In this document: piece after piece, positions 38,842 to 55,588 of the stretch
Position numbering within the stretch: the stretch's first letter is position 1
How the letters are laid out: each line of letters begins with the position of its first letter
Origin: Nitrospira lenta
Lineage (GTDB): Bacteria; Nitrospirota; Nitrospiria; Nitrospirales; Nitrospiraceae
Assembly: GCF_900403705.1 (NCBI RefSeq)
Contig: NZ_OUNR01000012.1
Coordinates: 310,001-374,000 of the forward strand
Length of the DNA: 64,000 nt
Direction: 5' to 3'
Notes under the pieces: model-generated
What the model saw: only the letters and a program-made list of their open reading frames with translations
What the model was told of the DNA's origin: nothing
Database searches by the model: none
Position numbers and translations under genes: made by a program

Positions 38842-38919
38842 GGTGGGTGTAGCTCAGTTGGTTAGAGCGCTGGATTGTGGATCCGGAGGTCGCGGGTTCG
38901 AAACCCGTCACTCACCCCA
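38842..38919 (+). tRNA. tRNA-His (GTG)
   Basis: A complete cloverleaf: acceptor GTGGGTG pairs with CACTCAC (one G-T), the D arm is GCTC...GAGC, and the anticodon loop TTGTGGA gives anticodon GTG. The T arm is GCGGGTTCGAAACCCGT, and CCA is encoded. The extra 5' G (38842) faces the discriminator C, as expected for tRNA-His G-1. The 3' half is the integration site of the element; integration regenerates an intact tRNA. Confidence 0.96.
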
Positions 38920-40172
38920 TCTTTTCTTTTCGTAACTACTGGAATCTCTAGGCGATCCGTCGAGGCCAGCCCAGGAATGGGTGAGCGTGGTTGCGCGGGG
39001 GTTGCGGATTCGACAGCCAGAGTGGGCTTCTCCACCGGGAGATCTAAGCGGTCTACGGCTTGTTTGTTCCCGCCTGGGATCAAGTGGCCGTAGAGATCCA
39101 CCGTCACTTGGATTGAGCAATGGCCCATCTGATCTTTCACGTAGACCGGGCTCTCCCCGTTTTGCAGGAGCAGACTCGCGAACGTGTGGCGGAGATCATG
39201 GAACCGGACTTTTCGCAGCTTGGCCTTGGTGAGCAAGCCATAGAACACGCGGTCACGAAGATTGTGCGGATGCAGTAGCCCTCCCGTCTCGCTCGCAAAG
39301 ACCCATTCAGGAATGTCGTTCACCCCGTTGGCGGCGGCCTCAATCTGTTGTTCGGTGCGGAGATCCTTGAGGGTCTGCATCAGTTCCCTGGACATATCCA
39401 CCCGGCGACTTTCGCCATTCTTTGGCGTGGTCAGCTTCCAATGGGTGTAGTTGCGCTGTACCTCGATAAATCGGCTTTGCCAATCGATGTCGCCCCACTG
39501 GAGCGCCAGGAGTTCGCCCATCCGCATGCCGGTCCGGACGGCGCAGAGAAAGAGCGGGAAATAACGCGGGAGCCTGTCCTTCGTCGTGCTGAGCAACACG
39601 CTCACTTCCTCGCGGGTCAAGGGATCGACCTTCCGGCGTTTGCTGATCTTCGGCAGGAACTTCCCAGGCTTCAGCGCCGTGTTTACGGTGATCAGACCAT
39701 CTTCGACCGCGTGACTGAGCAGGCTGCTGAGACAGCGGATGATGTTCTGCACCGTCTTCGGGGATTGCCCTTTCTGGAGGCATCCCATCGCCAAGGCTTT
39801 GACCTTCTCACGGGTAATCTCCTGCATGTCCACTCCGCGGAAGACGGGGAGCAGATCTCGATCAACAATCTTGCGATAGTCGGCGTGCGTTGTGTGCTTG
39901 CGGGTCTGTTCGATCCGGGAGAGAAACATCGAGGAATAGCTGTCAAACGTCTCGCCCGACTGCTGAGTCTCAAACGCGGCGTGTCCTATTGCGAGACGTG
40001 CCTGGATCTGTTGGGCGACCTGAGTCGCGGCCTTCTTGCCGGCTGCGCCCGTGCCAATCCGTTTGGCTTTGCGCATGCCGCGGTGGTCGATGTAGATCCA
40101 CCAGGCTCCGTTTCGTTCTCGAACTTTGACTCCCATGGCCGCCATGGTTGAGACTCCTCGTGAATTTGTCAA
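38862..40172 (-). CDS. int: Tyrosine recombinase integrase, C-terminus overlapping tRNA-His
   Basis: Protein of 436 residues: N-terminal arm-binding domain, SAM-like core-binding domain (about 75-165) and catalytic domain with Arg217, Lys251, H-x-x-R at 325-328 (HDLRHT), His351 and Tyr361 (VDLYGHL). The gene reads antisense through the attachment core into the tRNA. Residues about 418-425 (DGVSDGFR) come from the core, and the last 11 (TRDLRIHNPAL) from host tRNA sequence. In the excised circle the frame would instead continue for 55 residues encoded at 54837-55003. Its start overlaps the AlpA-like gene by four bases. Confidence 0.96.
   Translation of the reverse strand: MTNSRGVSTMAAMGVKVRERNGAWWIYIDHRGMRKAKRIGTGAAGKKAATQVAQQIQARLAIGHAAFETQQSGETFDSYSSMFLSRIEQTRKHTTHADYRKIVDRDLLPVFRGVDMQEITREKVKALAMGCLQKGQSPKTVQNIIRCLSSLLSHAVEDGLITVNTALKPGKFLPKISKRRKVDPLTREEVSVLLSTTKDRLPRYFPLFLCAVRTGMRMGELLALQWGDIDWQSRFIEVQRNYTHWKLTTPKNGESRRVDMSRELMQTLKDLRTEQQIEAAANGVNDIPEWVFASETGGLLHPHNLRDRVFYGLLTKAKLRKVRFHDLRHTFASLLLQNGESPVYVKDQMGHCSIQVTVDLYGHLIPGGNKQAVDRLDLPVEKPTLAVESATPAQPRSPIPGLASTDRLEIPVVTKRKDGVSDGFRTRDLRIHNPAL
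38897..38922 (+). repeat. attL core, 26-bp direct repeat
   Basis: From the T-loop of tRNA-His through CCA and three bases beyond. It is identical to 55004-55029. This marks the left end of the integrated element and lies inside the integrase reading frame on the opposite strand. Confidence 0.92.
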
Positions 40173-40438
40173 GCGACTCGTCGAGGTGGACAGATTTGCG
40201 CCACAACACTCTCAACGATTTCGGTCAGTTGGTCTGAAGGATGGGTAACTCGCTGGGCCTCCATCCATCGGTCGAACTCGTCACGTTTCACCAGCAATTT
40301 CCCGCCTACTCGGTAATGGGGCAATGGGTACATACGGTCAACCAAGCGATCTCGAAGCCATCGCACAGAGCAGCTTGAGTACGCTGCCAGCGTCTTGAGA
40401 TCTAGAAAGCTCGGTTGAACGTGAGTCGGCGATTTCAC
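40169..40438 (-). CDS. AlpA/Xis-like helix-turn-helix protein
   Basis: Protein of 89 residues. A winged-helix/MerR-type DNA-binding module: LDLKTLAAYSSCSVRWLRDRL (helix-turn-helix), followed by PLPHYRVGGKLLVKRDEFDRWME, the wing-helix pattern of phage excisionases and AlpA. It lies directly upstream of the integrase and overlaps both int and dnaB by four bases. It probably directs excision or regulates the arm. Excisionase is inferred from context. Confidence 0.8.
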   Translation of the reverse strand: MKSPTHVQPSFLDLKTLAAYSSCSVRWLRDRLVDRMYPLPHYRVGGKLLVKRDEFDRWMEAQRVTHPSDQLTEIVESVVAQICPPRRVA

Positions 40439-41754
40439 GGCTCGATATCCTCAAACCGTGCGAACCGATCGATAAATTTTAGGCGCCGGTCACCGATCGG
40501 CCCGTTACGATGCTTCCGGATGAGGACCTCGGCGACCCCTTTTTCATCGGTGTCGGGAACATAGACTTCGTGCCGGTAGAGAAACAGAACCACGTCAGCA
40601 TCTTGCTCAATGGCGCCGGAGTCCCGAAGGTCGGCTAACATCGGGCGTTTGTCGGGGCGCTGTTCGCAGGCTCGGGAGAGTTGGGAGAGTGCGAGCACAG
40701 GAATATCCAACTCCTTTGCCAAGAGCTTGAGTCTCCTGGACGCATCGGCTATGCCCTGCTGCCGAGTCTCGGCGCCAGGGAGCAAAAGGAGTTGCAGATA
40801 ATCAACAACCAGAAGATCTAGCCCTTTCGTAGCCTTGAGATGCCGGGCTTTTGCCGCGACTTGCTCCACGGTGAGTACTGTGGAATCGTCTGCCCAGAAC
40901 GGTAGCTGTTCGAACTCTTGGGCGGTGTTGGCGAAGTGCCACCATTCCTCCTGGCGGAGCGTTCCTGTCTTGAGGGTATGCACATCGATTGACGCGGCCA
41001 TCCCAATCACTCGAAGGCCTATTTGTTGACTCGACATCTCTAAGGACAATATCCCCACGTTGTAGCCTGCATGAGCTGCCGCGAGGGCTGACCCGATCGC
41101 GAGGCTGGTTTTCCCCATGCTTGGGCGGGCTGCGATAATCACCAGGTCTGACCGCTGCCACCCGCCTAACAGCGTATCAATCGTTGCAAAGCCAGTAGGA
41201 ATTCCGATCAGAGCCTTTCCCTGTTTGCGGGCACGATCAACGTAGTCGGCAGTTTCGCGGGCGATGTCGGCCCCTGATTGCCAGGTGCGGTCATCCCGTC
41301 CGGCCGCGATTTCTGACGCGCCGCGCTCAACTTCTCTCAGTAGGTCTTCGGTCGGAGCTTTCTCGTAAGCCATTTGGACGAGTGTTGTGCTGCGTTTGAT
41401 CAGCCTGCGTCGAATGGCATGATCACTGACGATACGGGCGTGATGGGTGATATTGGCTGCTGAGCTTACAGTGGTCAGCACTTCGGCCAACGAACCTCGC
41501 CCGCCGATGCGATCCAAACGCCCGTGACGATCAAGCCAATCTCCGACTGTCAGGAGATCGATGAGTACGCTTGTTCCGGCAAGATCGGTCATGGCTTCGA
41601 AAATGTCCCGGTGCCTGGAATCATAGAAGTCGCCGGCCTTCAGAATTTCCTGAGCGTGTGCGAGGGCGGTTGCGTTGATCAGGACGGCTCCAAGGATCGC
41701 CTGCTCGGCGTCGAGATCGTGAGGCTGGATACGAGGGAGGTCAGTGAGTGGCAT
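40435..41754 (-). CDS. dnaB: Replicative DNA helicase DnaB
   Basis: Protein of 439 residues, full length. The N-terminal domain (DLDAEQAILGAVL ... VSSAANITHHARIV) precedes a RecA-type motor with Walker A ARPSMGKTSLA and Walker B LLVVDYLQLL, the SQLSRACEQRPDKRP motif, DLRDSGAIEQDADVV and the arginine-finger region. Located in the element, it should be the element's own replication helicase, loaded by the adjacent initiator-like protein (14-bp overlap). The chromosome's own dnaB would be elsewhere. Confidence 0.95.
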   Translation of the reverse strand: MPLTDLPRIQPHDLDAEQAILGAVLINATALAHAQEILKAGDFYDSRHRDIFEAMTDLAGTSVLIDLLTVGDWLDRHGRLDRIGGRGSLAEVLTTVSSAANITHHARIVSDHAIRRRLIKRSTTLVQMAYEKAPTEDLLREVERGASEIAAGRDDRTWQSGADIARETADYVDRARKQGKALIGIPTGFATIDTLLGGWQRSDLVIIAARPSMGKTSLAIGSALAAAHAGYNVGILSLEMSSQQIGLRVIGMAASIDVHTLKTGTLRQEEWWHFANTAQEFEQLPFWADDSTVLTVEQVAAKARHLKATKGLDLLVVDYLQLLLLPGAETRQQGIADASRRLKLLAKELDIPVLALSQLSRACEQRPDKRPMLADLRDSGAIEQDADVVLFLYRHEVYVPDTDEKGVAEVLIRKHRNGPIGDRRLKFIDRFARFEDIEP

Positions 41755-42697
41755 GAGTCACCAATTCTGATTTGAGTGCAGGCCTGAGATGGTCAACGCA
41801 GCGAGGCTCGTTCGGTCGGCTCTCTGGGCTGGCTGGCTTGCCACAGTCCTGCCCGAAGCGATCGCCTGGGCCTTGGATGCGCTTTGAGCAGGTCGGCGCC
41901 TGGCCCTGGCCGTTCGTAGACTCTTCCGGGGTGATCCAGTCTCTCCACGGTTGGTCTTCCTTGCCGTTCTGCAAGAAGCGGTGAGGGTCCTTGATGCCGA
42001 CGCCCCTCTGGACCAGTTCACTGCTGGCGTAGTGGTGAGTAGCGACAAGAACGAGGCGACGATCTTCAGGATTGAGGGCGTGGAACTTTCTTAGCGCCTC
42101 CGGCTTGCCTACTCGCTTCCCGTTCCTCTTCGGGTAGATCTCCCAGAAATCCTCAAACTCGCGTTCGACCGCCGGAGGCGTCTCCTGCTCTTGTTCCTGC
42201 TCCTGCTCCTGCTCCTGAGTTGGCGAGGGGTTGGGTAAGGGGTTAGGGGAGGGCTTGGGGGAGGGGTGGGGGTACCACTTGGCGAGGGTTTGGAGGAACG
42301 TTTCTTTGACAGCATCTAAGAGGTAGGTAGTGTTAGCCGCGAATCTGGCGAAGAGGGGCGTTGCGGGAAGATCGTCGAGATCTTTGAGGTTGCCCACGAC
42401 ATTATTAGCACTCTCGGGTTGGTTATATCGCCACCAGGTTGGGAGATAGAGCACTCGGGCTTCTGAATCCCACTCCCATTTCAAGGCCAGACAGACCTTC
42501 TCGAAACCTTTGCGGAACGTTGCGGGTAATGTTCCCAAATCTTCGCAGGCTTTGCCGGGAGAGAAAGAGAAGAGGCCGATCCGGTTGGACTGAGCGGTGA
42601 GGATGTAGAGCGCAATGCGTTGTTGCTCGCCGGTCAATTGGCGGAACTTTTCATCAGTCCAGATTCGAGGATCGATTTTTCTGAAGCGGGCAGCCAT
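41741..42697 (-). CDS. Phage-type replication initiation protein
   Basis: Protein of 318 residues. An N-terminal DNA-binding-like domain (MAARFRKIDPRIWTDEKFRQL, typical of phage replisome-organiser proteins) ends near 135. A low-complexity linker follows (143-172; Pro/Ser/Asn then Gln-Glu repeats). The C-terminal FEDFWEIYPKRNGKRVGKPEAL is a segment found in many phage helicase-loader or DnaT-like proteins. It sits directly before dnaB, as O-P or DnaD-like loaders do. The linker-coding DNA is a candidate origin (42182-42272). Confidence 0.75.
   Translation of the reverse strand: MAARFRKIDPRIWTDEKFRQLTGEQQRIALYILTAQSNRIGLFSFSPGKACEDLGTLPATFRKGFEKVCLALKWEWDSEARVLYLPTWWRYNQPESANNVVGNLKDLDDLPATPLFARFAANTTYLLDAVKETFLQTLAKWYPHPSPKPSPNPLPNPSPTQEQEQEQEQEQETPPAVEREFEDFWEIYPKRNGKRVGKPEALRKFHALNPEDRRLVLVATHHYASSELVQRGVGIKDPHRFLQNGKEDQPWRDWITPEESTNGQGQAPTCSKRIQGPGDRFGQDCGKPASPESRPNEPRCVDHLRPALKSELVTHATH
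42182..42272. other. Iteron-like repeat tract, candidate replication origin
   Basis: Inside the initiator-like gene. About six CTCCTG-type hexamers (42182-42219) abut a run of at least six G-blocks of 3-5 bases separated by short spacers (42225-42272), strongly G-rich on the + strand. The arrangement mirrors lambdoid phages, whose origin lies in the middle of the initiator gene. The G-blocks could also form quadruplexes. Function is inferred from position and repeat structure. Confidence 0.45.
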
Positions 42698-42698
42698 T

Positions 42699-42947
42699 TC
42701 AGTTCCTTGCTCTGACAGGTTCGAGGTCGAGCGAATTCACGGTTGTGAGTAGCTGTTCTAGAATCGGATGGGCAGCCATGAGGCACTCGCGCAGACGATC
42801 TTCGGTTGCCGACTCGTCAGCGAGGATCTGGATAGAATTGATCCCACTTAGACCTATTCGGAGAATGATTTCGGGCGGTCTATCGAGGTCGCCGAGTTCC
42901 GGAGAGTTGAGATCAGTTACTTCTTGAGATAAGATTGCTGCCACCAT
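42699..42947 (-). CDS. Small protein upstream of initiator gene
   Basis: Protein of 82 residues with a GGAG site upstream. The first part (LNSPELGDLDRPPEIILRIGLS) and the helical remainder give no recognisable domain. It ends 1 bp before the initiator-like gene and should be co-transcribed with it. Unknown function. Confidence 0.6.
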   Translation of the reverse strand: MVAAILSQEVTDLNSPELGDLDRPPEIILRIGLSGINSIQILADESATEDRLRECLMAAHPILEQLLTTVNSLDLEPVRARN

Positions 42948-42999: not shown

Positions 43000-43227
43000 T
43001 TACTGCTCCTTTTTGGGTCCAGTCGCACTTCGTCTATCCGATGTGACTGCGTGCATTGCAGAACGCCTCTTGGCGAATGCTTCGACGTCAGGGCGACGAA
43101 AGACGCGAACGCCAGTTGCAGTTCGATCGGCTGGAAGTAATCCAGCTGACTCGTATCCGCGTATCGTATTCGGGACAACATCAAGCAGCCGTGCAACTTC
43201 GGCCGTCGTCATAATGGGTGAACTCAT
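43000..43227 (-). CDS. MerR-like/AlpA-like DNA-binding protein
   Basis: Protein of 75 residues, GGGAGG ribosome site. MTTAEVARLLDVVPNTIRGYESAGLLPA is the MerR helix-turn-helix, followed by the wing TGVRVFRRPDVEAFAKRR. No effector domain is present, so it resembles stand-alone MerR-type or excisionase-type regulators. It opens the replication block of the leftward arm and may regulate it. The 43228-43414 gap shows nothing clear. Confidence 0.82.
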   Translation of the reverse strand: MSSPIMTTAEVARLLDVVPNTIRGYESAGLLPADRTATGVRVFRRPDVEAFAKRRSAMHAVTSDRRSATGPKKEQ

Positions 43228-45402: not shown

Positions 45403-45448
45403 GGTGTCTCCTTTCGCTTTCGAGTTGGTCCGCTTGGTTACGTTTTCT

Positions 45449-45472
45449 TTATACGTGAGCGTTCACGTATAA
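45449..45472. promoter_or_regulatory. Perfect palindromic operator, divergent region
   Basis: Inverted repeat TTATACGTGA-GCGT-TCACGTATAA with perfect 10-bp arms. A related half-site CGTGAGCGCTCAG lies at 45498-45510, and a TTGACA hexamer at 45489-45494 sits between them. Located between the RHH-like gene (leftward) and the 55-residue gene (rightward), it should bind the element's regulator. The protein that binds is inferred, not shown. Confidence 0.65.
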
Positions 45473-45523
45473 GTCAACAAATGGTCGATTGACATTTCGT
45501 GAGCGCTCAGGTACGTGGTGAGT

Positions 45524-45691
45524 ATGAAAAAGCGAAAAGACCCCGCAGCCGTTGCCCTCGGCAGAAAGGGCGGCAAGAAGGGCGGACCCGCCAGGGCTGC
45601 AAAGCTTACCGCAGAAGAGCGTAGTGAAAGCGCCAGGAAGGCCGTTCAGGCTCGATGGAAGAAGGCCAAAGAAAAAGACCTGTCTTCCTAA
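45524..45691 (+). CDS. Small basic KGG-type protein
   Basis: Protein of 55 residues: MKKRKDPAAV, GRKGGKKGGPARAAKL, EERSESARKAVQARWKK. The GRKGGKKGG repeat followed by an E-R-S-x-x-A-R-K-A-x-x-A-R-W helix recurs in small proteins encoded near antitoxins and on mobile elements. It may bind nucleic acid. It has a GGTGAG site and is the first gene of the rightward arm, directly after the operator. Its stop codon lies in another palindrome. Confidence 0.65.
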   Translation: MKKRKDPAAVALGRKGGKKGGPARAAKLTAEERSESARKAVQARWKKAKEKDLSS

Positions 45692-45706
45692 CTATCCGGA
45701 TAGTTA
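45689..45706. promoter_or_regulatory. Perfect 18-bp palindrome before the SOS cassette
   Basis: TAACTATCCGGATAGTTA, fully self-complementary, overlaps the stop of the 55-residue gene and precedes HMCES by 22 bp. It could be an operator for the UmuD/LexA-like protein or another regulator; a terminator is less likely because there is no T-tract. Confidence 0.45.
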
Positions 45707-45728
45707 GCGATGGCGCACAAGGGTAGAG

Positions 45729-46403
45729 ATGTGCGGACGCTTCACCCAAACCGCTTCTCCTCAGGTGATTGCCCAACAATTTGGCGTCACCCCTCCACCT
45801 TTGTTCACCTCTCGCTACAACATCGCGCCGTCTCAGCCCATTGCGGCTGTCCGCATTGATCCCGACACCACCACGCGCACTCTTGTCATGCTCCGCTGGG
45901 GGCTCATTCCGTCCTGGGCTAAGGATCCCAAGATCGGGAATCAGTGCATCAATGCGAAAGGAGAGACTGTTGCAGAGAAGCCCTCCTTTCGGTCTGCCTT
46001 CAAAAAGCGCCGCTGTCTGGTTGTGGCAACGGGATTCTATGAATGGCAGGTGCAGGGGCGCATGAAACAACCGATGTGGATCGGACTAGAGAGCAAGGAG
46101 CCCTTTGCCTTTGCGGGATTGTGGGAACACTGGCAGCCCACGGAAGGGGACCCGCTTGAGACGTGTACGATTATCACCACGGAACCGAATGCGCTGATGG
46201 CGCCGATCCACAATCGGATGCCGGTGATTCTCCCGCCCACGGCCTATGAGCAGTGGCTTGACCCTGGGTTTCAACAGGTGGAACCGCTCAAGGCGCTCCT
46301 GCGTCCGTATTCGGGAGAGGAGTCGATCGCCTACCCCGTGAGTACACTGGTCAATAACCCTCGAAATGATGTGCCGCAGTGCCTTGAGCCGGTCTCGGTG
46401 TAG
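45729..46403 (+). CDS. SOS response-associated peptidase (HMCES/YedK, SRAP)
   Basis: Protein of 224 residues. Cys2 (MCGRFT) is the nucleophile that forms a thiazolidine crosslink with abasic sites in single-stranded DNA. Other conserved residues are Asn75 (NAKGE), Glu105 (GFYEW) and His161 (HNRMP). It shields abasic DNA from cleavage. It is the first gene of an HMCES-UmuD-UmuC run, a DNA-damage tolerance cassette carried by the element. Confidence 0.95.
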   Translation: MCGRFTQTASPQVIAQQFGVTPPPLFTSRYNIAPSQPIAAVRIDPDTTTRTLVMLRWGLIPSWAKDPKIGNQCINAKGETVAEKPSFRSAFKKRRCLVVATGFYEWQVQGRMKQPMWIGLESKEPFAFAGLWEHWQPTEGDPLETCTIITTEPNALMAPIHNRMPVILPPTAYEQWLDPGFQQVEPLKALLRPYSGEESIAYPVSTLVNNPRNDVPQCLEPVSV

Positions 46404-46442
46404 GGAGTAGACTGCACCTTGGCCTGGCTGTGAGGATGCCCG

Positions 46443-46868
46443 ATGCACGTTGACGCGATCTACGCCCCCGATCTTTCGACCCGTTACAAGCTGCCGATAT
46501 TCCTAGGGCGACTCCCGGCAGGGTTTCCTTCTCCCGCTGACGACTATATCGAGGGTAAGCTCGATCTCAACCGGAAGCTCATTAAGCACCCGGCTGCGAC
46601 GTTCTTTGTCAAAGTCACCGGCAACTCGATGTTGGGGGCGGGGATTCACAACGGGGACCTCTTGGTCGTCGATAAGTCACTCGAAGCCGTTGATGGAAAT
46701 GTGATCGTAGCCTCACTGGACGGAGAATTAACCGTCAAACGCCTCTATAAGCGGGACAATGTGCTCCGCCTGCTCCCGGACAATAAAGACTATCAGCCTA
46801 TTGAGATTCAGGCCCAACAATCCTTTGAGATTTGGGGCGTCGTCACCAACGTGATCCACGCGCTTTAG
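46443..46868 (+). CDS. umuD: UmuD-like S24 peptidase
   Basis: Protein of 141 residues, the size of UmuD. Catalytic Ser62 (VTGNSML) and Lys99 (GELTVKRL); autocleavage site Ala26-Gly27 in LPAGFPSPADDY. RecA-stimulated self-cleavage yields UmuD', which joins UmuC as Pol V. There is no N-terminal DNA-binding domain, so it is not LexA itself. It lies 9 bp before umuC. Confidence 0.93.
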   Translation: MHVDAIYAPDLSTRYKLPIFLGRLPAGFPSPADDYIEGKLDLNRKLIKHPAATFFVKVTGNSMLGAGIHNGDLLVVDKSLEAVDGNVIVASLDGELTVKRLYKRDNVLRLLPDNKDYQPIEIQAQQSFEIWGVVTNVIHAL

Positions 46869-46877
46869 TGGTCCTCC

Positions 46878-48146
46878 ATGCCCCCCATCTTTGCCCTCGT
46901 CGATTGCAATAATTTCTATGCCTCCTGTGAACGGGTCTTTGCGCCTCGCTTAGAGGGGAAGCCCATTATCGTGCTGTCGAATAATGACGGCTGTGTAGTG
47001 GCTCGATCGAATGAGGCGAAAGCGCTGGGCATTGCGATGGGGGTTCCAGAGTTCCAGATTCGCCCCCTCATTCGAGCCCATCAGGTGCAGGTGTTTTCCT
47101 CGAACTACACGCTCTACGGCGATATGTCGCAACGGGTCATGGAGACCCTAGAGCAGTTCTGCCCGGATCTCGAAATCTATTCGATCGACGAAGCGTTCCT
47201 GAGCCTGACCGGCTTTACGTCGCGAAACCTCACTGACTACGGGCGTACCATTCGGGCCACGGTCAAACGCTGGACCGGTCTCCCGGTCTCCATCGGCATT
47301 GCGGAGACCAAGACCTTGGCGAAGATCGCCAACCGAATCGCGAAGCGAACACCAGACACGGGAGGGGTCTTTGATTTGCTGGCCTGCTCTGACCGTGACG
47401 CGTTGCTCGGCCGGGTGCCGGTTGAAGATGTGTGGGGGATCGGGCGGAATCACACCAGACTCCTGAATCAGCACGGCATCAAGACGGCCCTTCAGTTGCG
47501 CGAGGTTGATGAACAGTGGATCAGGAAACATCTGGGTATCGTGGGCTTGAGGCTAGTAATGGAGCTCCGAGGTGTCTCCTGCTTAGACCTGGAGGAATGC
47601 CCCGCCCCGAAGCAGAGCCTGACATGTTCTCGGTCGTTTGGGCACCCCATCAGCACCCTAGCCGAAATGGAAGAAGCGGTGTCGTCTTATGCATCTCGTG
47701 TAGCGGAGAAATTAAGACGCGGACGACTGGCCGGGACGGTGATGACGGTGTCCCTTACTACAAACGAGTTCAAGGAAGGGCCGCAGTACAGTAACTCCGT
47801 GACGCTGAATCTTTCCGTTGCGACGGACTCCACGGCGGACCTCATCAAGTCGTCGCTTCGGGGAATCCGCGCCATCTACAAAGAGGGCTACAACTACAAG
47901 AAGGCCGGAGTGATACTCACAAGTCTGGTGCCTGCCAGTCAGACACAAGCCGACCTGTTCGATGCTCAAGACAGAGTAAAGTCCAAGCGGCTCATGTCCG
48001 CGCTCGATGCGGTCAATGATCGGTGGGGCGCCGGTACCCTCCACTATGCTTCGAGTGGGATCACCAAGCGCTGGAAGGCACAGTTTCAACACCGTTCGCC
48101 AGCCTATACGACGGATTGGGCTGCATTGCCGATCGTGACGGCCTAG
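46878..48146 (+). CDS. umuC: Y-family DNA polymerase UmuC
   Basis: Protein of 422 residues. The opening [34 protein letters not shown], and catalytic [10 protein letters not shown] mark the palm; the HhH region is [17 protein letters not shown]. The little-finger domain follows, then the UmuC C-terminal extension ending [21 protein letters not shown]. It performs translesion synthesis with UmuD'. The ribosome site is weak, so it is likely coupled to umuD. Confidence 0.97.
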
Positions 48147-48175
48147 TTTTCGCCATATCGGAGCAATGGATTACG

Positions 48176-48880
48176 ATGGATGACCTACTCGGTATTGGTA
48201 GGATATTTGAGGCTTTCGAGCGGGGGACGAGAGAATTTCGCGAGGTCACGAAACTCTATTATGAGCCTATCGTAAAGGTGAAAGGGCAGCTTAAAGCCAC
48301 AGAGCTGCAAATACGAGGTAGAGTGCGTGTAGTCCGTGCGTTACTCGAAGCAGATCGCCAAATTAAGAAGGCTGGCATAAAGAAGCGGACGCTAAATGAA
48401 AAGGTCGCACTTCCGATACTTGAGTACGTTTCACTTGAAACAGAGGATGAACTGATTGAGAAGTGGGCAGGCCTTCTCGCTTCATCAACAGCAGGGGATG
48501 CGGTTCATCCAAGTTTCCCTCATATCCTATCCCAGCTGAGCGTGGATGACGCACAAATTCTCGATAGGCTCTATATTTGGATGCTTGAGGAAGAGCGTGG
48601 TCTTGATTATGCGCGACATAACAGCGGGCAATTGAAACTATTGCTCGGTCTCAGTCACCAGCGGTTCGTGATAGCGACTGAAAACCTATCACGACTTAAA
48701 CTATGTCGTGACGGTCGTGAAGGGGACGATGCTCCTTTTTGGGCGACACCTTCGAGCTTTGTGGATGACCTTCAGCCGTTGAAGCTTACAGTTCTCGGTC
48801 TGAGATTTATTCAGATGTGCAGAGGTCCGAAGAAGATGAAGCGGTCGCCAAAACACTCTCCCAAGAAGCGAAACAATTAG
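48176..48880 (+). CDS. Abi-alpha (DUF4393)-like putative abortive infection protein
   Basis: Protein of 234 residues from MDDLLGIGRI. The central ETEDELIEKWAGLLASSTAGDAVHPSFPHILSQLSVDDAQILDRL fits the Abi_alpha/DUF4393 signature (E-D-E-x-L-x-x-x-W-A-x-L-L ... V-H-P-S-F ... L-x-x-L-D-A). The C-terminus is Lys-rich. Members are linked to phage abortive infection. Base composition is visibly more AT-rich than neighbours (48601-48660 is about 47% GC), suggesting separate acquisition. It is placed directly after umuC. Confidence 0.7.
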   Translation: MDDLLGIGRIFEAFERGTREFREVTKLYYEPIVKVKGQLKATELQIRGRVRVVRALLEADRQIKKAGIKKRTLNEKVALPILEYVSLETEDELIEKWAGLLASSTAGDAVHPSFPHILSQLSVDDAQILDRLYIWMLEEERGLDYARHNSGQLKLLLGLSHQRFVIATENLSRLKLCRDGREGDDAPFWATPSSFVDDLQPLKLTVLGLRFIQMCRGPKKMKRSPKHSPKKRNN

Positions 48881-49108
48881 GCTGATTGGTTGCTTGGCAC
48901 TTCCTGCTTGCTCTAAGTATCTGAGGCCCTCTGTATCCTTCTCTGAGCTCTCGTATCTTCCCCGATACCACACCTTCACCTAACCTTCCTCACTTACCCC
49001 ATAAATTACCCCACAAACTCCCCACTTTCCCCCTTGTGACACCCTCCCCACGTTCGGCACGCGGGTTGCTGAGATCCTTGTAGGAACCTCACACAAGGAG
49101 AACCAGCT

Positions 49109-49519
49109 ATGTCGAATGCCTCGATGTTCCCCACTAGCGCCCCCGTAGCTCCCGGCATCTATATCGACGAGATTGATCCTGGCGCCCCGGACATGCCTGC
49201 CGTCACGCGGGAACTGGTCCGGGCCTCGCTAGAGCAAATCTGTGAACGTGAGCTAGCTGGGGTCGTCTATGAGGAGAATACGTCCGAGACCCGAGCGCAG
49301 CTCACAGCGACTTTGCGCGGGCATCTTGTGATGCGTTGGGCGAAAGATCAGCTCAAAGGACGGTCTGCACAGGAAGCCTTCTTCCTCCGGTGCGATCACC
49401 CCACCACGATGCAGACCGACCTCGACAACGGGTTCCTGATCTGCGAAGTCGGCATGGCACCGGTCAGCCCGTCGGAGTTTGTCGTCTTCCGTATGCTCAT
49501 CCGATTTGCCCCTCGGTAG
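49109..49519 (+). CDS. Miniature phage/eCIS tail-sheath-like protein
   Basis: Protein of 136 residues with AAGGAG 8 bp upstream. The N-terminal PGIYIDEI (about 15-22) matches the opening of contractile-tail sheath proteins. The remainder (about 40-133), with KGRSAQEAFFLRCD, TTMQTDLDNGFLICEVGMAP and SEFVVFRM, matches the sheath C-terminal domain. The several-hundred-residue middle of normal sheaths is missing, yet the frame is intact. No other tail genes are present. It could be a decayed remnant or a functional interference protein. The 48881-49108 gap is pyrimidine-rich on this strand and contains no gene. Confidence 0.72.
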   Translation: MSNASMFPTSAPVAPGIYIDEIDPGAPDMPAVTRELVRASLEQICERELAGVVYEENTSETRAQLTATLRGHLVMRWAKDQLKGRSAQEAFFLRCDHPTTMQTDLDNGFLICEVGMAPVSPSEFVVFRMLIRFAPR

Positions 49520-49554
49520 TAAGGCCCTCGCCAGGACAAAACAAGCCTGTTAGC

Positions 49555-50265
49555 ATGCGGTCTATGCGTTTTGCCTTGGTGATCATTCTCACGGTCCTTC
49601 TCGCTGTTCCCGCGTTCGCGGGAGAATTCGCCGGCCGTGTAGTTGGGGTTATCGATGGCGATACGATCGACGTGCTGCATGATGGCCAAACTGAACGGAT
49701 TCGCCTCAATGGCATCGATACTCCAGAGAAGGGGCAGGATTATGGCCGGCGGGCGAAACAGTTTGCCGAGGATTTCCTTGCCAAGCAGGAAGTAAGGGTT
49801 TTGGCTCATGGCGCCGATAAGTATGGCCGCACGATCGGCGACGTGTTCTTATCGGATGGTACTCACCTCAACAAGGAATTGGTCAAAGCCGGACTGGCTT
49901 GGTGGTACTGTCGTCATTCCTCCGATGAATCGCTGAAGCAACTTGAGGAAGAAGCTCGAGACGCGAAGCGCGGTCTCTGGAAGGATCCGGTTCCTATTCC
50001 GCCGTGGGTGTATCGTAAACTTCAGCGGAAACAGGTGCCAGACGTGTCTGACTTCGATTGTCCTGGTCAGACAGTTTCTCGGGCTCTCGAGTCCGCTTCA
50101 ACTGAATCTCTCGCATCTTCGGTGATTGGTAACAGGCGCAGCCATATCTTTCACCGGGCTGATTGTCCCGGCTATGGCAAGGTGTCGGCCGGAAACCGAG
50201 TCACATTTGAGAGTATCGAAGCAGCGGAAGAGGCGGGATATCGATTAGCAGGGAACTGTCCGTGA
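49555..50265 (+). CDS. Exported SNase nuclease with C-terminal Cys/His domain
   Basis: Protein of about 236 residues from MRSMRFALVI; a second Met at 49564 is equally possible. The signal peptide ends AFAG. The TNase domain is complete: VIDGDTIDVL, RLNGIDTPEKGQ, DKYGRTIGDV and LEEEARDAKRGLWKDP. After a linker, the last 45 residues (HIFHRADCPGYGKVSAGNRV ... GNCP) form an Ada-type Cys/His module. It degrades DNA and RNA outside the cytoplasm. It could attack incoming phage DNA, as inference. It ends 6 bp before the HEPN gene. Confidence 0.88.
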   Translation: MRSMRFALVIILTVLLAVPAFAGEFAGRVVGVIDGDTIDVLHDGQTERIRLNGIDTPEKGQDYGRRAKQFAEDFLAKQEVRVLAHGADKYGRTIGDVFLSDGTHLNKELVKAGLAWWYCRHSSDESLKQLEEEARDAKRGLWKDPVPIPPWVYRKLQRKQVPDVSDFDCPGQTVSRALESASTESLASSVIGNRRSHIFHRADCPGYGKVSAGNRVTFESIEAAEEAGYRLAGNCP

Positions 50266-50271
50266 GGGTTT

Positions 50272-51186
50272 ATGTCTAAATCGTGGGTAGCCTTTGCATT
50301 AATGCACCCGCATGGGGTCATTCCCAAAAGCCTTGCTCTGCCGTATCAGCTGAGTGAGGGGGTTTCATTACAGGCGGCCCCTGATTGCACCGCAATACCC
50401 GATGTGATCGACGGTCTTCGGGAGCAAGTTGGAGAAACGATAGTGGCGGATGGTTGCCATCACTGCATAGCTATAGAGTATTGCTCGGAGAAATCACCTT
50501 CGCAAGGATTGGGGCAAGCTCCAGTCTGGTCCGAACACGACGACTCCGAGCAACGAATACGGCTTGCCCATTTAGCGTTCTGGCTTGTTCGCCCAACAGC
50601 ACTGACCTTCACCACAGTTGTTGTCGCTGAGATGCATGACATCGCGTGGATTACCGCTGCAATTCATACTTACGGCCCTACCTACGGATCAGGGGAAGCT
50701 GCACAAAGTGAGCTTAGCTCAGAGGACCTGGTAGGCGTAAGTAAGACACTCAAGGCTCTTGATGCCGTATCACGTGGGAAGGCAATTCATACAGCTGCTC
50801 TGCTTATAACAAAAGCGCTCTCCGATCCAACTGTAGAATTCCGCTCTCTTCTCATGTGGCTCGCAATGGAAAGCCTCTTTGGCACTTCTGATACAGGTGA
50901 GGTGACATTTCAGTTGGCCCAAAGAGTAGCCTTCTTTTTGGAATCTGATCGATCCAAGGCAAAGGAAACATTCAAATTGGTCAAGGCTTGCTACGATATA
51001 AGATCGAAGCTCGTCCATGGATTCAAGGTGACCAAGATCAGCGATCAGAAATTCAACGAGTTCACGTTGAATTCTGAAACGCTTCTCCGCAGGTCTCTAT
51101 TAACCATCCTCAACGACAATTCAACTATTGAAAATATTGACGGAGCTGGAAGAGACTCCTATCTGAACGGCTTGGCATTTAAGTGA
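50272..51186 (+). CDS. Apea-like HEPN domain protein
   Basis: Protein of 304 residues. The C-terminal half is helical with EFRSLLMWLAMESLFG and then CYDIRSKLVHG, giving the HEPN ribonuclease signature R-x4-H (Arg244 to His249). This is the Apea-like HEPN arrangement. The N-terminal half (1-150) is an unassigned sensor-like region. HEPN RNases of this kind act in anti-phage defence. Base composition is AT-richer than the surrounding genes. It lies 6 bp after the exported nuclease, in the cargo arm. Confidence 0.72.
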   Translation: MSKSWVAFALMHPHGVIPKSLALPYQLSEGVSLQAAPDCTAIPDVIDGLREQVGETIVADGCHHCIAIEYCSEKSPSQGLGQAPVWSEHDDSEQRIRLAHLAFWLVRPTALTFTTVVVAEMHDIAWITAAIHTYGPTYGSGEAAQSELSSEDLVGVSKTLKALDAVSRGKAIHTAALLITKALSDPTVEFRSLLMWLAMESLFGTSDTGEVTFQLAQRVAFFLESDRSKAKETFKLVKACYDIRSKLVHGFKVTKISDQKFNEFTLNSETLLRRSLLTILNDNSTIENIDGAGRDSYLNGLAFK

Positions 51187-51240
51187 GACTAGCCCGACCA
51201 ATACCTACGTTCGAGGTTGGCGAATAGAAGGGCTTTGACG

Positions 51241-51747
51241 ATGGCAGTTCGACGGATCACCTCACAGGATGCAAAAGATGCTTCTCAATCGGCTGACACC
51301 TTCCCCGGTTCAGTCAGTGGGACCTACCTGAGGGTGACGGGTCACGATTACATGGAGAATTTTGACCTTCCGCCCCAGATCCAATACGACGTGATCTATC
51401 TCCTCACCTCCGGCCGCTTTGCGTGGCTGAGTTATTGGTCGGGGTTTGTATACGGTCGACGAGCGGGAAGGTTCACTCGCCAGGGAGCGGATATACAACT
51501 CGAAGGCCGAGATACGCTCTCTTCCGATTGCATCAGCGAAAATCACGAAGGGAAACCATTCATACAGGCCTTGCAGCTAAAGCAACGCGAGGGGAAGCGT
51601 GTGTTGGTTGGGCCTCTTGGAGAGTACTCGTACCTGGGTTTCCGTGTGTTTATTCCCTTTGAGGGCTTAGGGCAGCACCTCTTTCCCCGGAGTTGGGATG
51701 AGTTAGAAGAATGGGTGACTCGCTTCATTCGACCTTGCGTTTCTTGA
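51241..51747 (+). CDS. Hypothetical cargo protein
   Basis: Protein of 168 residues from MAVRRITSQD; an earlier in-frame start at 51217 exists. There is no signal peptide. Aromatic-rich middle (FAWLSYWSGFVYGRRAGRF) and a C-terminal FIPFEGLGQHLFPRSWDELEEWVTRF. No family recognised. It follows the HEPN gene by 54 bp and may be part of the same cassette. Confidence 0.5.
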   Translation: MAVRRITSQDAKDASQSADTFPGSVSGTYLRVTGHDYMENFDLPPQIQYDVIYLLTSGRFAWLSYWSGFVYGRRAGRFTRQGADIQLEGRDTLSSDCISENHEGKPFIQALQLKQREGKRVLVGPLGEYSYLGFRVFIPFEGLGQHLFPRSWDELEEWVTRFIRPCVS

Positions 51748-51760
51748 CGAGAGGTACTCG

Positions 51761-52050
51761 ATGAACGGTCTCAATAGTCTCGGATGGCAGATTCACGACC
51801 ACCTCAAGCAGCATCGCCCAAACATGTTCCGGGCATTGAAGGCCGAGGGACGGCTGAATCAGTACGTCCTCGATCAGCACAAAGAGCCAGCGACAGCCTG
51901 ACCTTCCTGGAACAGCAGGGGATGTATCCGCACGAAGCGATGGAGATGATTCGAGATCAAGTCTTCCCGCCGAGCGAGGAGGACGTGCCGAATCTCGGGG
52001 AGACGATGCAGCCGTACAGCGACAAAGCGCCTGATATACAGATAAGGTGA
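51761..52050 (+). pseudogene. Small gene split by an apparent -1 frameshift
   Basis: A 46-codon frame (51761-51901; MNGLNSLGWQIHDHLKQHRPNMF...) with a GAGAGGT ribosome site ends just where a second frame takes over without its own obvious start (SLTFLEQQGMYPHEAMEMIRDQ ... PPSEEDVPNLGETMQP, to 52050). The two parts read as one continuous helical protein if the frame shifts by -1 near 51880-51899. No classical slippery heptamer is seen. It is either a broken gene, a sequencing slip, or a genuine short gene of 46 residues. Confidence 0.45.
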
Positions 52051-52087
52051 TCAGTAGAGAGCTACTCGAGGTACACGGAGATGCACC

Positions 52088-52717
52088 ATGCGTTTTGCGC
52101 TTGTGTTGACCATTCTGTTCCTAAGCGGGTGTGCCACTGATGGTGGATTGACCAAGGAAGACCAATCTAGGCAAGCCATTCGCAAGCAGGCCTATACGGC
52201 TCCGTTTCCCATGCCCGATATGACAGCCCAGCCGCAGTTTAACGATCCGGACGCCTTTGCCTTGCAGCCTGGACCTGTCGGATCCAAGTATTTGAATGCT
52301 GGTCCTGCACCAGCGGAATCGGACGCTGAGGGAGGGGCAGCCGCGTTAGTGATGCCGCCAGCGACCGCTCCAGCGCCTCCTCAAGCGGCTAGACAGCCGG
52401 CCACTCAGCAACCGCAAGTTCCGCAGGAACCAGAATGGATGACGCCGGCCAGAAAGAAGATGTATGAAAAAGCCTATGAAGCAGGCCGGCAGTATCGTGA
52501 GCAGTACATCGCGGCAAAACGTCCGGTATTTCGGCTAAAGTACCGTCACGAATACCCCACGATGTCAGACGAGGAAGTCGAGGTGCTAGTGAATGATGCG
52601 CTTGAGGATGGGTTACGCGAAGAGGCACGACGCCGCAGTGCTGGGTCTGTCGTGAAGCCTTCCGTCAACTGTACGTCGTCCCAGGTGGGAAGCTACACCT
52701 ATACGGACTGCTATTAG
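52088..52717 (+). CDS. Putative lipoprotein of the element
   Basis: Protein of 209 residues. The signal peptide MRFALVLTILFLSGC ends in a lipobox (LSGC). A Pro/Ala/Gln-rich linker (about 75-120) precedes a helical C-terminal domain: KKMYEKAYEAGRQYREQY and PTMSDEEVEVLVNDALEDGLREEARRR. It ends with two Cys residues. Function unknown; an envelope lipoprotein on a satellite could serve in superinfection exclusion, as inference only. It is the last gene of the rightward arm. The 132 bp to the convergent gene hold nothing recognised. Confidence 0.7.
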   Translation: MRFALVLTILFLSGCATDGGLTKEDQSRQAIRKQAYTAPFPMPDMTAQPQFNDPDAFALQPGPVGSKYLNAGPAPAESDAEGGAAALVMPPATAPAPPQAARQPATQQPQVPQEPEWMTPARKKMYEKAYEAGRQYREQYIAAKRPVFRLKYRHEYPTMSDEEVEVLVNDALEDGLREEARRRSAGSVVKPSVNCTSSQVGSYTYTDCY

Positions 52718-52849
52718 CGAGATTCTCTCACTGCCTTGGCTTGTCGCGTCTTGTTATGCCCTGGCCGCTTGGTTTTCACCGTGGAATCCCCGCAGGCTTC
52801 CTCACTTCAACGTCCTCACGGCTTCCTACTCTCGGCAGACGCCCCGTGC

Positions 52850-53290
52850 CTATTCTGGATGCTCCCACGCATATTGAAGCAGCGATAGGTAGACCGCGAA
52901 CACTTTCGATGTCTCCGTTCCGCCCACCCGTACCGCGACTCGCGCAGAATACTGCCACATGTCTTGAATGAAGGGGTGCTGGTCAAGGATCGTGCGGAAC
53001 TTGGGAAGCTCGAAGAATGGAACGGTGTGTTCGAGCTGGACCACGGCTCGCTCGGCATCCTTCGCCAGTGCCTTGAGTTGTGCGCCTTCAATATCACAGA
53101 GCTGATTGAGCGCCTTTCGAGTGGTTTCTACCGGACAGCCTGAGGCCTGGGCATCTTCTTGCGCCGTGCGCTCCAATTCCTTGAAGATGATCGGCCACGG
53201 TGCCCCGGTTTGGTAGATCTCCATGACCTCATACATGGGCATGAGCGTTTGCTCTGAAAGATAGTGTGCCAGGTCGATCGCGGCTTCCAT
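52850..53290 (-). CDS. Element protein downstream of terS, unknown
   Basis: Protein of 146 residues, mostly helical (ALNQLCDIEGAQLKALAKDAERAVVQLEH; PFIQDMWQYSARVAVRVGG). No family recognised. It is the last gene of the leftward arm as read in the circular form. In phages this position after terS usually carries structural or head-assembly genes. Confidence 0.55.
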   Translation of the reverse strand: MEAAIDLAHYLSEQTLMPMYEVMEIYQTGAPWPIIFKELERTAQEDAQASGCPVETTRKALNQLCDIEGAQLKALAKDAERAVVQLEHTVPFFELPKFRTILDQHPFIQDMWQYSARVAVRVGGTETSKVFAVYLSLLQYAWEHPE

Positions 53291-53317
53291 AACTCCTCGT
53301 GTCCTTTGGAAGCGAGC

Positions 53318-53758
53318 CTAATATCCCGTTCTCATGCGTGGTCGACGCATGAAGGGGGGCGATGCCAACAGGGCGGCAGGGCTCACCATCGGTGGTTTGG
53401 CTGCTGGGGAAGGTCTCGGAGCTGGTGTCGATGCCTGACCAACCTCAAATCTCGATAGCGGAATCCCCAGCTTCCCAGGCGTCTCGATGGGTTGAGACGA
53501 GGGGATGCGTGGCCGGGTGGCCGTCAGTTGGGCCGCCTGCTCCGCGTCCTCATAACTCGGTCCCAGTCCGGATGGGCCCCGATTCCATTCATTTTGACCC
53601 ATCTGCCAGCCCTGTTGGACAGCAAGACGATCGAGGTGCATTTCCCTCTGTTGCTCGATGTATTTGTCTTGCTGTTTCATCTGCATGCCTCGAATGAACA
53701 TATCGGTTACCATTCCCACGCCTCGTTCAACCCCTTGCCCGATTCCATATGAACTCAT
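53318..53758 (-). CDS. Gln/Met-rich element protein, possible phage virion-type
   Basis: Protein of 146 residues, with a GGAGG-type site upstream. The N-terminus (GIGQGVERGVGMVTDMFIRGMQMKQQDKYIEQQREMHLDR) is a Met/Gln-rich helix of the sort found in small phage virion or injection-associated proteins. The C-terminus is Pro/Ala/Arg-rich and disordered-looking. No firm family. It sits 66 bp after terS. Confidence 0.5.
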   Translation of the reverse strand: MSSYGIGQGVERGVGMVTDMFIRGMQMKQQDKYIEQQREMHLDRLAVQQGWQMGQNEWNRGPSGLGPSYEDAEQAAQLTATRPRIPSSQPIETPGKLGIPLSRFEVGQASTPAPRPSPAAKPPMVSPAALLASPPFMRRPRMRTGY

Positions 53759-53824
53759 ACGCGCCTCCTTGGTTAATAAACTGCCCGACTTACTATGTGA
53801 TGTCCTGACCTGACACCTTCGAGA

Positions 53825-54412
53825 TCATGAGTCGCCGTGTCCTATTTGTTTAGGCTCCATCCGTGGCCCGACCATCGCCTTCTTCCTTATCCGCATGAAC
53901 TCTTTAAATTCCTCATCGGTCAGCTTCGAGAGATCGAACTGTGCCGGAGGAGCGGACGGAGACTGTTTCATCTTCTCTCGCGGAATATCTCCCACCAGCT
54001 TCGAGTAGTTCATAATCGCGCTCTGCTTATCGACAAACCTGATCCTCGTGACAAGACTTACTGGATCGACTTCATAGGCCGCAATCGCTCGGCGAGCATG
54101 CTCGGGCATCGCCCGAAGGGACAACGGATGGCCAAAGTTATCGAAACAATCGGCGGGATCAAGGAACATCGCACAGGCCAACTCTGTGAGTCGATTTGCC
54201 ATGGTCTCTTGCACTTGTGCCACCACTGGTGCACGAAGTTCTGTGATCCTTGTCCGAATCTTGCCCATCTTTGCCAAACGGCATGCCTTTTCGTTGATCG
54301 TTTTCTTGCTCATCTGTTTGGGCACATAGGCCACTCGGTATGCCTCGGTCAGCTTCTGGCCAATCACGATCTCCTGACAAAAGCGTTCCTGTTTGGATGT
54401 CAACTTACTCAC
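53825..54412 (-). CDS. terS: Terminase small subunit
   Basis: Protein of 195 residues. The N-terminal LTSKQERFCQEIVIGQKLTEAYRVAY ... INEKACRLAKMGKIRTRITEL is the Terminase_2 helix-turn-helix and oligomerisation region. The middle has DPADCFD and SLVTRIRFVDKQSAIMNYSKLVGD. TerS recognises the pac/cos site and with TerL packages DNA; no TerL is present here. A lone terS is a hallmark of satellites that redirect helper packaging. It starts by ATGA overlap with the TSCPD gene. Confidence 0.88.
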   Translation of the reverse strand: MSKLTSKQERFCQEIVIGQKLTEAYRVAYVPKQMSKKTINEKACRLAKMGKIRTRITELRAPVVAQVQETMANRLTELACAMFLDPADCFDNFGHPLSLRAMPEHARRAIAAYEVDPVSLVTRIRFVDKQSAIMNYSKLVGDIPREKMKQSPSAPPAQFDLSKLTDEEFKEFMRIRKKAMVGPRMEPKQIGHGDS

Positions 54413-54840
54413 TCCGGCACCTCCCGATGTATCTTTTGGTGTATGGAAGATGACCCATTCGAAACCTGAGCATGGGCCAACTCATCATGTCCGCAATACT
54501 CAACCAGCAGATGCCGGCCGATCAAATCCGGGACACTCGAACAATGCTTCAGGCGATCGTGCCCGGACACAGGGCCGCATGGATCAAATTTGGCTCCAGC
54601 GAGGAGATCGCCGACCTTTTCAAGCGGAGCGCCGTACTGCAGGGCTACGCTCATCAGGCGGGCAATGACGTCGTAGAGGCCAATCAACTCAGAAGTGCAG
54701 TCCGGACCTTTGAGCCTGAGGAAGATTTCGGCTGGTTGAGGATCGTCATGCACGCTGAGGTAGAGCGTCCGCTGCCCGGAGATGCGAACTTTCTGGATGA
54801 CGTGTCGTCGACGAGCGGGGAGAACGAGACGTTGGCTCAT
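54409..54840 (-). CDS. TSCPD domain protein (ribonucleotide reductase-type)
   Basis: Protein of 143 residues. QKVRISGQRTLYLSVHDD, AEIFLRLKGPDCTSELIGLYD, ALQYGAPLEKVGDLLAGAKF and HCSSVPDLIGRHLLVEYCG match the TSCPD domain found at the end of class II ribonucleotide reductases and as a stand-alone phage protein. The role in phages is unclear; nucleotide metabolism is likely. Its ATG overlaps the stop of the frame that continues the integrase in the circular form. It is co-transcribed with terS. Confidence 0.8.
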   Translation of the reverse strand: MSQRLVLPARRRHVIQKVRISGQRTLYLSVHDDPQPAEIFLRLKGPDCTSELIGLYDVIARLMSVALQYGAPLEKVGDLLAGAKFDPCGPVSGHDRLKHCSSVPDLIGRHLLVEYCGHDELAHAQVSNGSSSIHQKIHREVPE

Positions 54841-55040
54841 GACGGCAGCTCCTCGCCAGAAGCCGCCGTATCTGTAGTACCGTCCTGAGACTTAGATTTC
54901 TGGTTGCGGCTGGTTGCGGATTCGCGTATTTCTTGCCTGCTTTTGCCTCGATCTGCCGAGCTAAGTGCTTGATCTTGTTGATTGGCTTGATGGTCACATA
55001 AAATTCGAAACCCGTCACTCACCCCATCTCGTTTCCTCAT
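54837..55040 (-). CDS. Open frame across attR: alternative integrase C-terminus
   Basis: A 67-codon frame starting in host DNA (MRKR), passing through the attR core (DGVSDGFR, the same frame and residues as in the integrase) and continuing ILCDHQANQQDQALSS ... TAASGEELPS. In the integrated state it is probably an orphan. In the excised circle the same frame becomes the last 55 residues of the integrase (480 residues in all), ending by ATGA overlap with the TSCPD gene. An alternative frame (GTG 55018, reading KPINKIKHLARQIEAKAGKKYA) also has coding character in its first third. Confidence 0.5.
   Translation of the reverse strand: MRKRDGVSDGFRILCDHQANQQDQALSSADRGKSRQEIRESATSRNQKSKSQDGTTDTAASGEELPS
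55004..55029. repeat. attR core, 26-bp direct repeat
   Basis: Identical to 38897-38922. It marks the right end of the element. Host sequence resumes to the right. It lacks the 5' tRNA half, as expected for the displaced tRNA end after tRNA-targeted integration. Confidence 0.92.
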
Positions 55041-55234
55041 AGGCTGTTGACGATTGGCCGATACCCCGATGCGTCAGTTCGGTAACGGATGCGTGGGATA
55101 CGCTCCTTCGCTGGCACGTACCCTCGTGGGGTTTGCGCGTGCGAAAGGAATCTGTCCACGCCATTGTTCCGTATGGAGTGATAGGGTGGTAGAGTGTAAG
55201 GGTTATTTGGGACGGTTTAAACAAGGAGGTCGTG

Positions 55235-55588
55235 ATGCAGATGGTAGGACGTATCGGAATGATAGGACTCGGTATTGCGCTGGTGGGTGTACTCGGCGGC
55301 GCGCCAGTGTTTGCGGCAGATGCGCCGATCGAGGACGGATCGAAGATCGTGATCACGTCTCCGAAGGACGGCGATACGGTCGGCGATACCTTTGAGTTGA
55401 AGTATGAAATGACCAAGGGATCCGAGATGGGCCACGCCCACGTGTACCTGGATAATCAATATCAGAAGGGCTTTCCCGGAACGTTCAAAGGGGTGAGCAA
55501 GGGCAAGCACCAGATCACGGTGACTGGCGCGAACAAGGATCACAAGCTCGTCTCCGCCACACAGACCATCACAGTCGAAGTCCAGTAA
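55235..55588 (+). CDS. Small exported beta-sandwich protein
   Basis: Protein of 117 residues from ATG 55235 with AAGGAGGT 4 bp upstream; GTG at 55232 and ATG at 55241 are close alternatives. The signal peptide ends VFAAD. The mature domain (IVITSPKDGDTVGDTFELKYEM ... GHAHVYLDNQYQKGFPGTFKGVSKGKHQITVTGANKDH) is an immunoglobulin-like beta sandwich similar to DUF4399-type proteins. The His-x-His could bind metal. It is the first host gene right of attR. Confidence 0.75.
   Translation: MQMVGRIGMIGLGIALVGVLGGAPVFAADAPIEDGSKIVITSPKDGDTVGDTFELKYEMTKGSEMGHAHVYLDNQYQKGFPGTFKGVSKGKHQITVTGANKDHKLVSATQTITVEVQ

Follow-up and report, generated by a model that had tools for sequence, protein, structure and literature searches.

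The 64,000 nucleotides analysed here (G000:C12:310001-374000, called the window below) carry a phage-satellite-like element of 16,107 bp (38897-55003), bounded by 26-bp exact att cores at the 3' end of a tRNA-His gene. It is probably an integrative element whose attachment site, attP, lies in the 3' coding part of its own integrase gene, int; integration would split an int-TSCPD-terS cluster that excision rejoins. The nearest relatives of the window in the searched set belong to the same genus, the named records being Nitrospira.

The integrated element and its attachment sites

The longest repeat common to both suspected ends is the exact direct 26-mer TTCGAAACCCGTCACTCACCCCATCT. A related genome (G022) has an empty site: pyrF and tRNA-His stand immediately before the gene found on the far side of attR in the window; the insertion in the window is therefore real. 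The features of the two ends are as follows.

38843..38919, plus strand: host tRNA-His (GTG), the integration target, its 3' end within the att core (ARAGORN)
38897..38922: left copy of the att core (attL), 26-bp exact repeat; pyrF-tRNA-His is unbroken in G022 (locus L153)
38989..39006, plus strand: two GGTTGCG repeats, 11 bp apart, putative Int arm-type sites on the int side of attP (repeat search)
54902..54918, plus strand: two GGTTGCG repeats, 10 bp apart, putative Int arm-type sites on the TSCPD side of attP (repeat search)
55004..55029: right copy of the att core (attR), 26-bp exact repeat

The heptamer GGTTGCG occurs nine times in the whole window, four of them at the element ends, and the pair is also present in the corresponding tails of the related elements L139 and L094 (partly in L083 and L087). 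From this distribution we infer that the pairs are arm-type Int sites. Another short motif, ATCAACA(A/G)GAT or a close variant, read as QQD in the int frame, is located about 20 nt past the core in the window, L129, L148, L147, L094, L083, and L087. These elements are of the tyrosine-integrase type and use different tRNAs; the motif could be a site for a host factor or for Int. A search of viral_contigs with the attP junction pattern gave no match, and no circular form was seen there.

The leftward cluster and the fused int frame

The left part of the element consists of a leftward gene cluster that ends on int at the tRNA gene.

43000..43227, minus strand: MerR-like regulator, head of the cluster (PF00376 1.3e-9)
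42699..42947, minus strand: orf82, an 82-aa ORF with no family given (ORF list)
41741..42697, minus strand: DnaD-like helicase loader / replication initiator (phrog_1701 3.7e-18)
40435..41754, minus strand: DnaB-like replicative helicase (phrog_19 5e-106)
40169..40438, minus strand: AlpA-like helix-turn-helix gene, excisionase/regulator (PF12728 2.8e-7; phrog_66, phrog_1840)
38862..40172, minus strand: tyrosine integrase in its integrated form, 436 aa, the last residues encoded by tRNA-His antisense (PF00589 2.7e-24; phrog_1 2.2e-68)
54837..55003, minus strand: alternative int C-terminal tail and stop, present in the excised circle only, also the P' arm of attP (junction translation; homologous tails in L139, L094, L083, and L087)

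A gap of 52 nt separates the MerR-like gene from orf82 and 1 nt separates orf82 from the initiator, after which the genes overlap (initiator/dnaB by 14 nt, dnaB/AlpA-like and AlpA-like/int by 4 nt each). In the predicted circle (38897 joined to 55003), int continues from KRKDGVSDGFR into ILCDHQANQQDQ...GEELPS, and its product has 480 aa instead of 436 aa; attP thus lies within the int coding frame, and the two states encode different C-termini. The TGA of the circle frame (54839-54837) overlaps the ATG of the TSCPD gene (54840-54838) as ATGA, and the translated junction bears out the earlier note, which had read the alternative int frame as ending in this way. The same note had described the circle as one collinear leftward operon from the MerR-like gene to terS; the order and the overlaps hold, while orf82 between the initiator and the MerR-like gene had been missed. 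When the window tail was shuffled by dinucleotides at constant length, 13.7% of the shuffles left the int frame open as far as TSCPD; the correct phase onto TSCPD is a further chance factor of about 1/3.

TSCPD and the genes of the right end

Four leftward genes stand at the right end, inside attR.

54409..54840, minus strand: TSCPD protein, 143 aa, first gene past attR (PF12637 2.7e-10; copies 64-80% identical in other Nitrospiraceae)
53825..54412, minus strand: terS, terminase small subunit, its GTG start overlapping the TSCPD stop (PF03592 7.5e-12; phrog_51 1.5e-13; 75% identical ortholog in L139)
53318..53758, minus strand: g3, 146 aa, no family given (homologs directly after TSCPD in L078 and L129)
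52850..53290, minus strand: g4, 146 aa, no family given (weak homolog, 27%, beside a terS gene in G004:C25, L073)

The TSCPD/terS overlap is GTGA, and not ATGA as had been claimed. The two further genes reported after terS are present; they follow without overlaps, the gaps being 66 and 27 nt, and both are preceded by a Shine-Dalgarno-like sequence. TSCPD is preceded by GAGGAG 8 nt before its ATG, and terS also has a Shine-Dalgarno-like sequence; coupling via int translation is therefore not required for either gene.

No free-standing relatives of this TSCPD protein were found in the viral contig, phage, and plasmid collections, where the annotated TSCPD matches are ribonucleotide reductases. 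The literature search found no paper joining TSCPD and integrase. An AlphaFold model (5-sequence alignment) had a mean pLDDT of 45 and was dropped for fold search, and the best match in a PDB sequence search (E 0.06) was an unrelated viral protein, taken as chance. At other loci, free-standing TSCPD genes stand behind non-integrase ORFs, helicase-like in L136 and exonuclease-like in L138, and those of L138 and L140 have an ATGA overlap onto the preceding ORF. TSCPD is therefore not tied to int alone, and it may be a wider phage replication-phase gene.

Recurrence of the junction in other elements

In Nitrospiraceae, 16 free-standing TSCPD genes are located directly past a tRNA-derived att core, i.e., at attR ends. 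Upstream of them the same arrangement is met repeatedly: a tRNA 3'-end fragment and then an open frame ending on the TSCPD start. The cores derive from tRNA-His (five ends: window, L139, L094, L083, and L087), tRNA-Glu(CTC) (L129 and L148), tRNA-Lys (L147), a tRNA-Leu-like gene whose identity was judged by eye (L078), and tRNA-Glu(TTC) (seven ends: L134, L144, L086, L079, L142, L084, and G103). Several of the 16 copies are frameshifted or truncated, and TSCPD is often decayed among relatives.

Both ends were recovered for eight elements (window, L129, L148, L147, L134, L144, L086, and G103), which together span tRNA-His, -Glu(CTC), -Glu(TTC), and -Lys. In all eight the recombinase frame crosses the core in frame and ends on the TSCPD start, in G103 through an intervening relay ORF of 32 aa; the remaining eight attR ends have the same open frame ending on the TSCPD start. 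The recombinase is only a remnant in L144 (115 codons) and L086 (207 codons). In L129, L148, and L147 the TSCPD protein has an N-terminal extension, and its ATGAGT overlaps the int stop.

The recombinases involved are diverse. The int product of the window belongs to the phrog_1 group of tyrosine recombinases. L129 and L148 also have enzymes of the tyrosine type, only about 22-25% identical to it, and L134 encodes a large serine recombinase (PF00239, PF07508, and PF13408), which the G103 recombinase resembles, as judged from its sequence. The tRNA-Glu(TTC) core is crossed in three different frames (GVPNG in L134, WCPQR in L144 and L086, and VSPTG in G103), and the attR tail of each of these elements matches the frame of its own recombinase. 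Since the same junction occurs with unrelated recombinases and different tRNA targets, the layout is not a one-locus accident, suggesting that it matters to these elements.

As a control, related genomes were sampled for int genes overlapping a tRNA, and four further elements with both cores were found. One of them (G026, tRNA-Arg, int 64% identical) has kept a decayed piece of TSCPD with an ATGA at the predicted position, and another (G024, tRNA-Lys) retains the same tail and start, with the rest of TSCPD lost. No TSCPD was found in two of the five elements of this control (G030 at tRNA-Lys and G019 at tRNA-Thr). The layout is therefore frequent without being universal, and decayed copies have often lost TSCPD. 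Several elements with TSCPD occupy different tRNA genes in a single genome, G012 (L075, L147, and L148). L075 was considered as a further junction and set aside: its int and alpA are related, and its attR is replaced by an IS, leaving the junction unreadable.

Coding sequence or attachment-site DNA

The tail between core and TSCPD could be kept as an attP arm with integrase sites, its open frame being incidental, and the evidence differs between the two groups of tails. A codon test was applied to the 15 codons before the stop in six related serine-recombinase tails (RPLSFTIDLLVEAA and variants), a small sample of 45 nt each. Third positions were variable in 13 of 15 cases, compared with 8 of 30 first and second positions (Fisher p=1.7e-4), and no frame other than that of the recombinase showed the bias. 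Integration separates the serine tail from the start codon of the recombinase; selection on its codons therefore points to the joined form. These six related 45-nt sequences thus point to selection on the fused frame of the excised form.

The same test revealed no third-position bias in the tRNA-His tails, and therefore no protein-level selection is claimed for them. Their lengths from core to TSCPD (187, 187, 151, 172, and 172) are all equal modulo 3. All five keep the int frame open, while a competing frame has stops in L139. The His tails, that of the window element included, may be conserved as attP arm-site DNA rather than as protein. If the GGTTGCG pairs are arm-type sites, coding sequence and attP arm overlap in the window element, and either could dominate.

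An explanation of the tail by att DNA alone thus draws on the GGTTGCG pairs on both sides of the core and on the missing codon bias of the His tails; it has to contend with the frame kept in every His tail and with the strong codon signal of the serine-recombinase tails. It is judged somewhat unlikely, and even if true, it would leave the gene order of the circle unchanged.

Proposed expression in the two states

The preferred reading remains that of a cluster split by integration. Integration into tRNA-His would cut the leftward cluster in two. At the left end, MerR-orf82-initiator-dnaB-alpA-int would remain together, with the short int tail supplied by tRNA antisense; at the right end, TSCPD-terS-g3-g4 would be left behind attR with no recognisable promoter and no host gene reading in. 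Excision would regenerate attP, restore the long int frame, and join the two parts again into a single cluster with overlapping genes. In the circle, transcription from the replication/integration promoter would extend into TSCPD and terS, and int translation could be coupled to that of TSCPD through the ATGA overlap. TSCPD and the packaging functions would thus be made mainly in the circle, which is the form destined for replication and packaging. Circle formation, the joint int-TSCPD-terS transcript, and the silence or excision-limited expression of the right end are what we infer from the gene arrangement.

An independent promoter just inside attR had been named in advance as an observation against such coupling. 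No sigma-70-like promoter was found on either strand of 52700-55300 (0 compared with 1.4 expected in shuffles, which is weak evidence), and the flanking host gene at 55232 (plus strand) points away from the right-end genes. The proposal that excision couples packaging to the circular state holds insofar as TSCPD and terS would lie directly behind int in the circle; its focus on packaging was too restricted. What is conserved next to int across the att site is TSCPD, and terS follows in only some elements; packaging coupling would therefore be one version of a general excision-coupled cassette.

Alternatively, the arrangement could be a by-product of att placement, with attP placed by chance where int met TSCPD in an ancestral phage operon, other promoters or helper factors setting expression, and excision having no regulatory role. 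Integrases that target tRNAs often have attP at or within the 3' end of their gene, and tRNA-antisense int ends are common; such ends are also present in the control elements. The TSCPD genes behind non-integrase ORFs, the Shine-Dalgarno-like sequences of TSCPD and terS, and the His tails, which look conserved as arm-site DNA and not as codons, would also fit. This alternative is nevertheless unlikely, because the layout recurs with serine and diverged tyrosine recombinases at several tRNAs with the frames matched each time, because the serine-recombinase tails bear signs of codon selection, and because no sigma-70-like promoter was found at the right end.

Within the split-cluster reading, TSCPD itself might be an excision-phase factor acting on recombinases or on the fresh circle, its expression limited to the excised state by the split of the operon at attP; this design would have been retained, or have arisen anew, with both tyrosine and serine recombinases. 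Its role could be, for example, to block re-integration or to aid circle replication or packaging. This assignment is offered tentatively and is itself doubtful.

Packaging genes and satellite-like features

PICI-type satellites are recognised by an integrase, a replication module, and a master regulator in a conserved order; the window element has int, AlpA-like, dnaB, DnaD-like initiator, and MerR-like genes together in one cluster. The 16.1 kb between the att cores lie slightly above the typical PICI range (about 12-15 kb) and were counted as PICI-sized, and the element has its own terS without TerL, as some PICIs do. TerL was searched in the whole genome (phrog_2) and not found; the two weak matches, the best one PhoH-like, were rejected. 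Among the element genes scanned, none matched a capsid, portal, TerL, or lysis family. At 49109-49519 (plus strand), a 136-aa ORF resembles a phage tail sheath (phrog_17610, 1.7e-10) over the C-terminal part of the sheath alone; its own N-terminus is short and unrelated.

A terS gene follows TSCPD only in some elements (window, L139, and L134), and at least two terS families are represented. L139 contains two terS-like genes, one matching PF03592 (1.8e-23) and another that shares 75% identity with terS of the window, while L134, an element of 6.6 kb, encodes a terS of phrog_4044 (7e-35). Possible further cases are L142 (phrog_641, weak) and perhaps L072, next to a TSCPD fragment. In L078 and L129, g3-like genes take the place of terS after TSCPD. 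Homologous 260-aa zinc-finger-like proteins are encoded downstream of TSCPD in L131 and L094, at the position of terS in other elements. TerS without TerL, together with the small size of L134, fits satellites that would redirect the packaging of a helper, and the window element may have a satellite lifestyle.

The window element also carries cargo genes for SRAP, UmuD, and UmuC (45729-48146, plus strand), which are 82-90% identical in the related L139 element from another genus. The TSCPD proteins of the two elements are 61% identical, far below the cargo, suggesting separate exchange. Genes judged by eye as large helicase, phospholipase-D-like, restriction-endonuclease-like, and type I restriction-modification genes are present in L139 (2252-13349) and L149, in the element or its neighbourhood; these genes are possibly defence cargo.

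That the 16-kb island is a dead prophage remnant, which lost terL, capsid, and tail genes and inherited an unused int-attP-TSCPD-terS order, would agree with the tail-sheath fragment, a tape-measure-like protein in the related L075, and the many degenerate TSCPD copies, and is quite unlikely given the intact int, alpA, dnaB, initiator, TSCPD, and terS ORFs, the perfect att cores, the related L139 element with TerS and cargo and no TerL in the part recovered, the mere 6.6 kb of the TerS-bearing L134 with both att ends recovered, and the recurrence of different TerS families at the same place.

Comparison with known systems

The closest precedent for the split-cluster reading is Tn916. According to the cited part of PMC11658703 (citing Celli and Trieu-Cuot 1998), its transfer genes have no promoter in the integrated state and are transcribed after excision from Porf7 through the joined ends. 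The principle proposed here is the same as in that account: a promoter at one end would read through the joined attachment site into promoterless genes of the far end. Conjugation genes and an antiterminator (canT) belong to Tn916 only, whereas attP within the int frame, the new int C-terminus, TSCPD and terS downstream, and the overlapping frames distinguish the window element from Tn916 as described there. Reading frames run through the predicted junction in eight elements.

In mycobacteriophage BPs, attP lies inside the repressor gene, the C-termini of the integrated and excised forms differ, and the tail controls stability (PMC4557955). The window element likewise has attP in a coding frame with two resulting C-termini; the gene split here is the recombinase and not the repressor, and its tail leads into TSCPD and packaging genes. 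In ICEKp1 and ICEclc, the int promoter is state-dependent, int being switched by a promoter from the far end (PMC13023037). Expression near the att junction is proposed to depend on the integrated or circular state here as well; in the window element it is the int operon that would control the genes of the far end.

PICIs, as characterized in the cited part of PMC6092414, encode an integrase, an AlpA-like regulator, a replication module, and terS without TerL within about 15 kb, with few or no structural genes. The gene content of the window element resembles this set, including terS without TerL; a circle-dependent int-TSCPD-terS cluster and an attP inside int are not among the PICI features described in that part of the source. 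In helper-embedded PICIs, excision of the satellite controls the gene interrupted at the att site (PMC10111431, in the part cited). The gene interrupted there is that of the helper prophage, while the cluster interrupted here is the element's own. In our judgement, new here is the combination of attP in the recombinase gene, a frame-matched tail, the TSCPD overlap, and terS next to it; the logic of circularization is already known from Tn916.

Implications

If the split-cluster reading is true, integration would itself act as a switch by dividing an operon, which excision would make whole again. Packaging and circle-phase proteins would then be made mainly when the circle exists, without a dedicated regulator. 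As one junction is shared by several recombinase types and tRNAs, these satellite-like elements of nitrifying bacteria would provide a comparative test of circularization-dependent expression outside Tn916, in which the free-standing TSCPD gene would gain a testable context.
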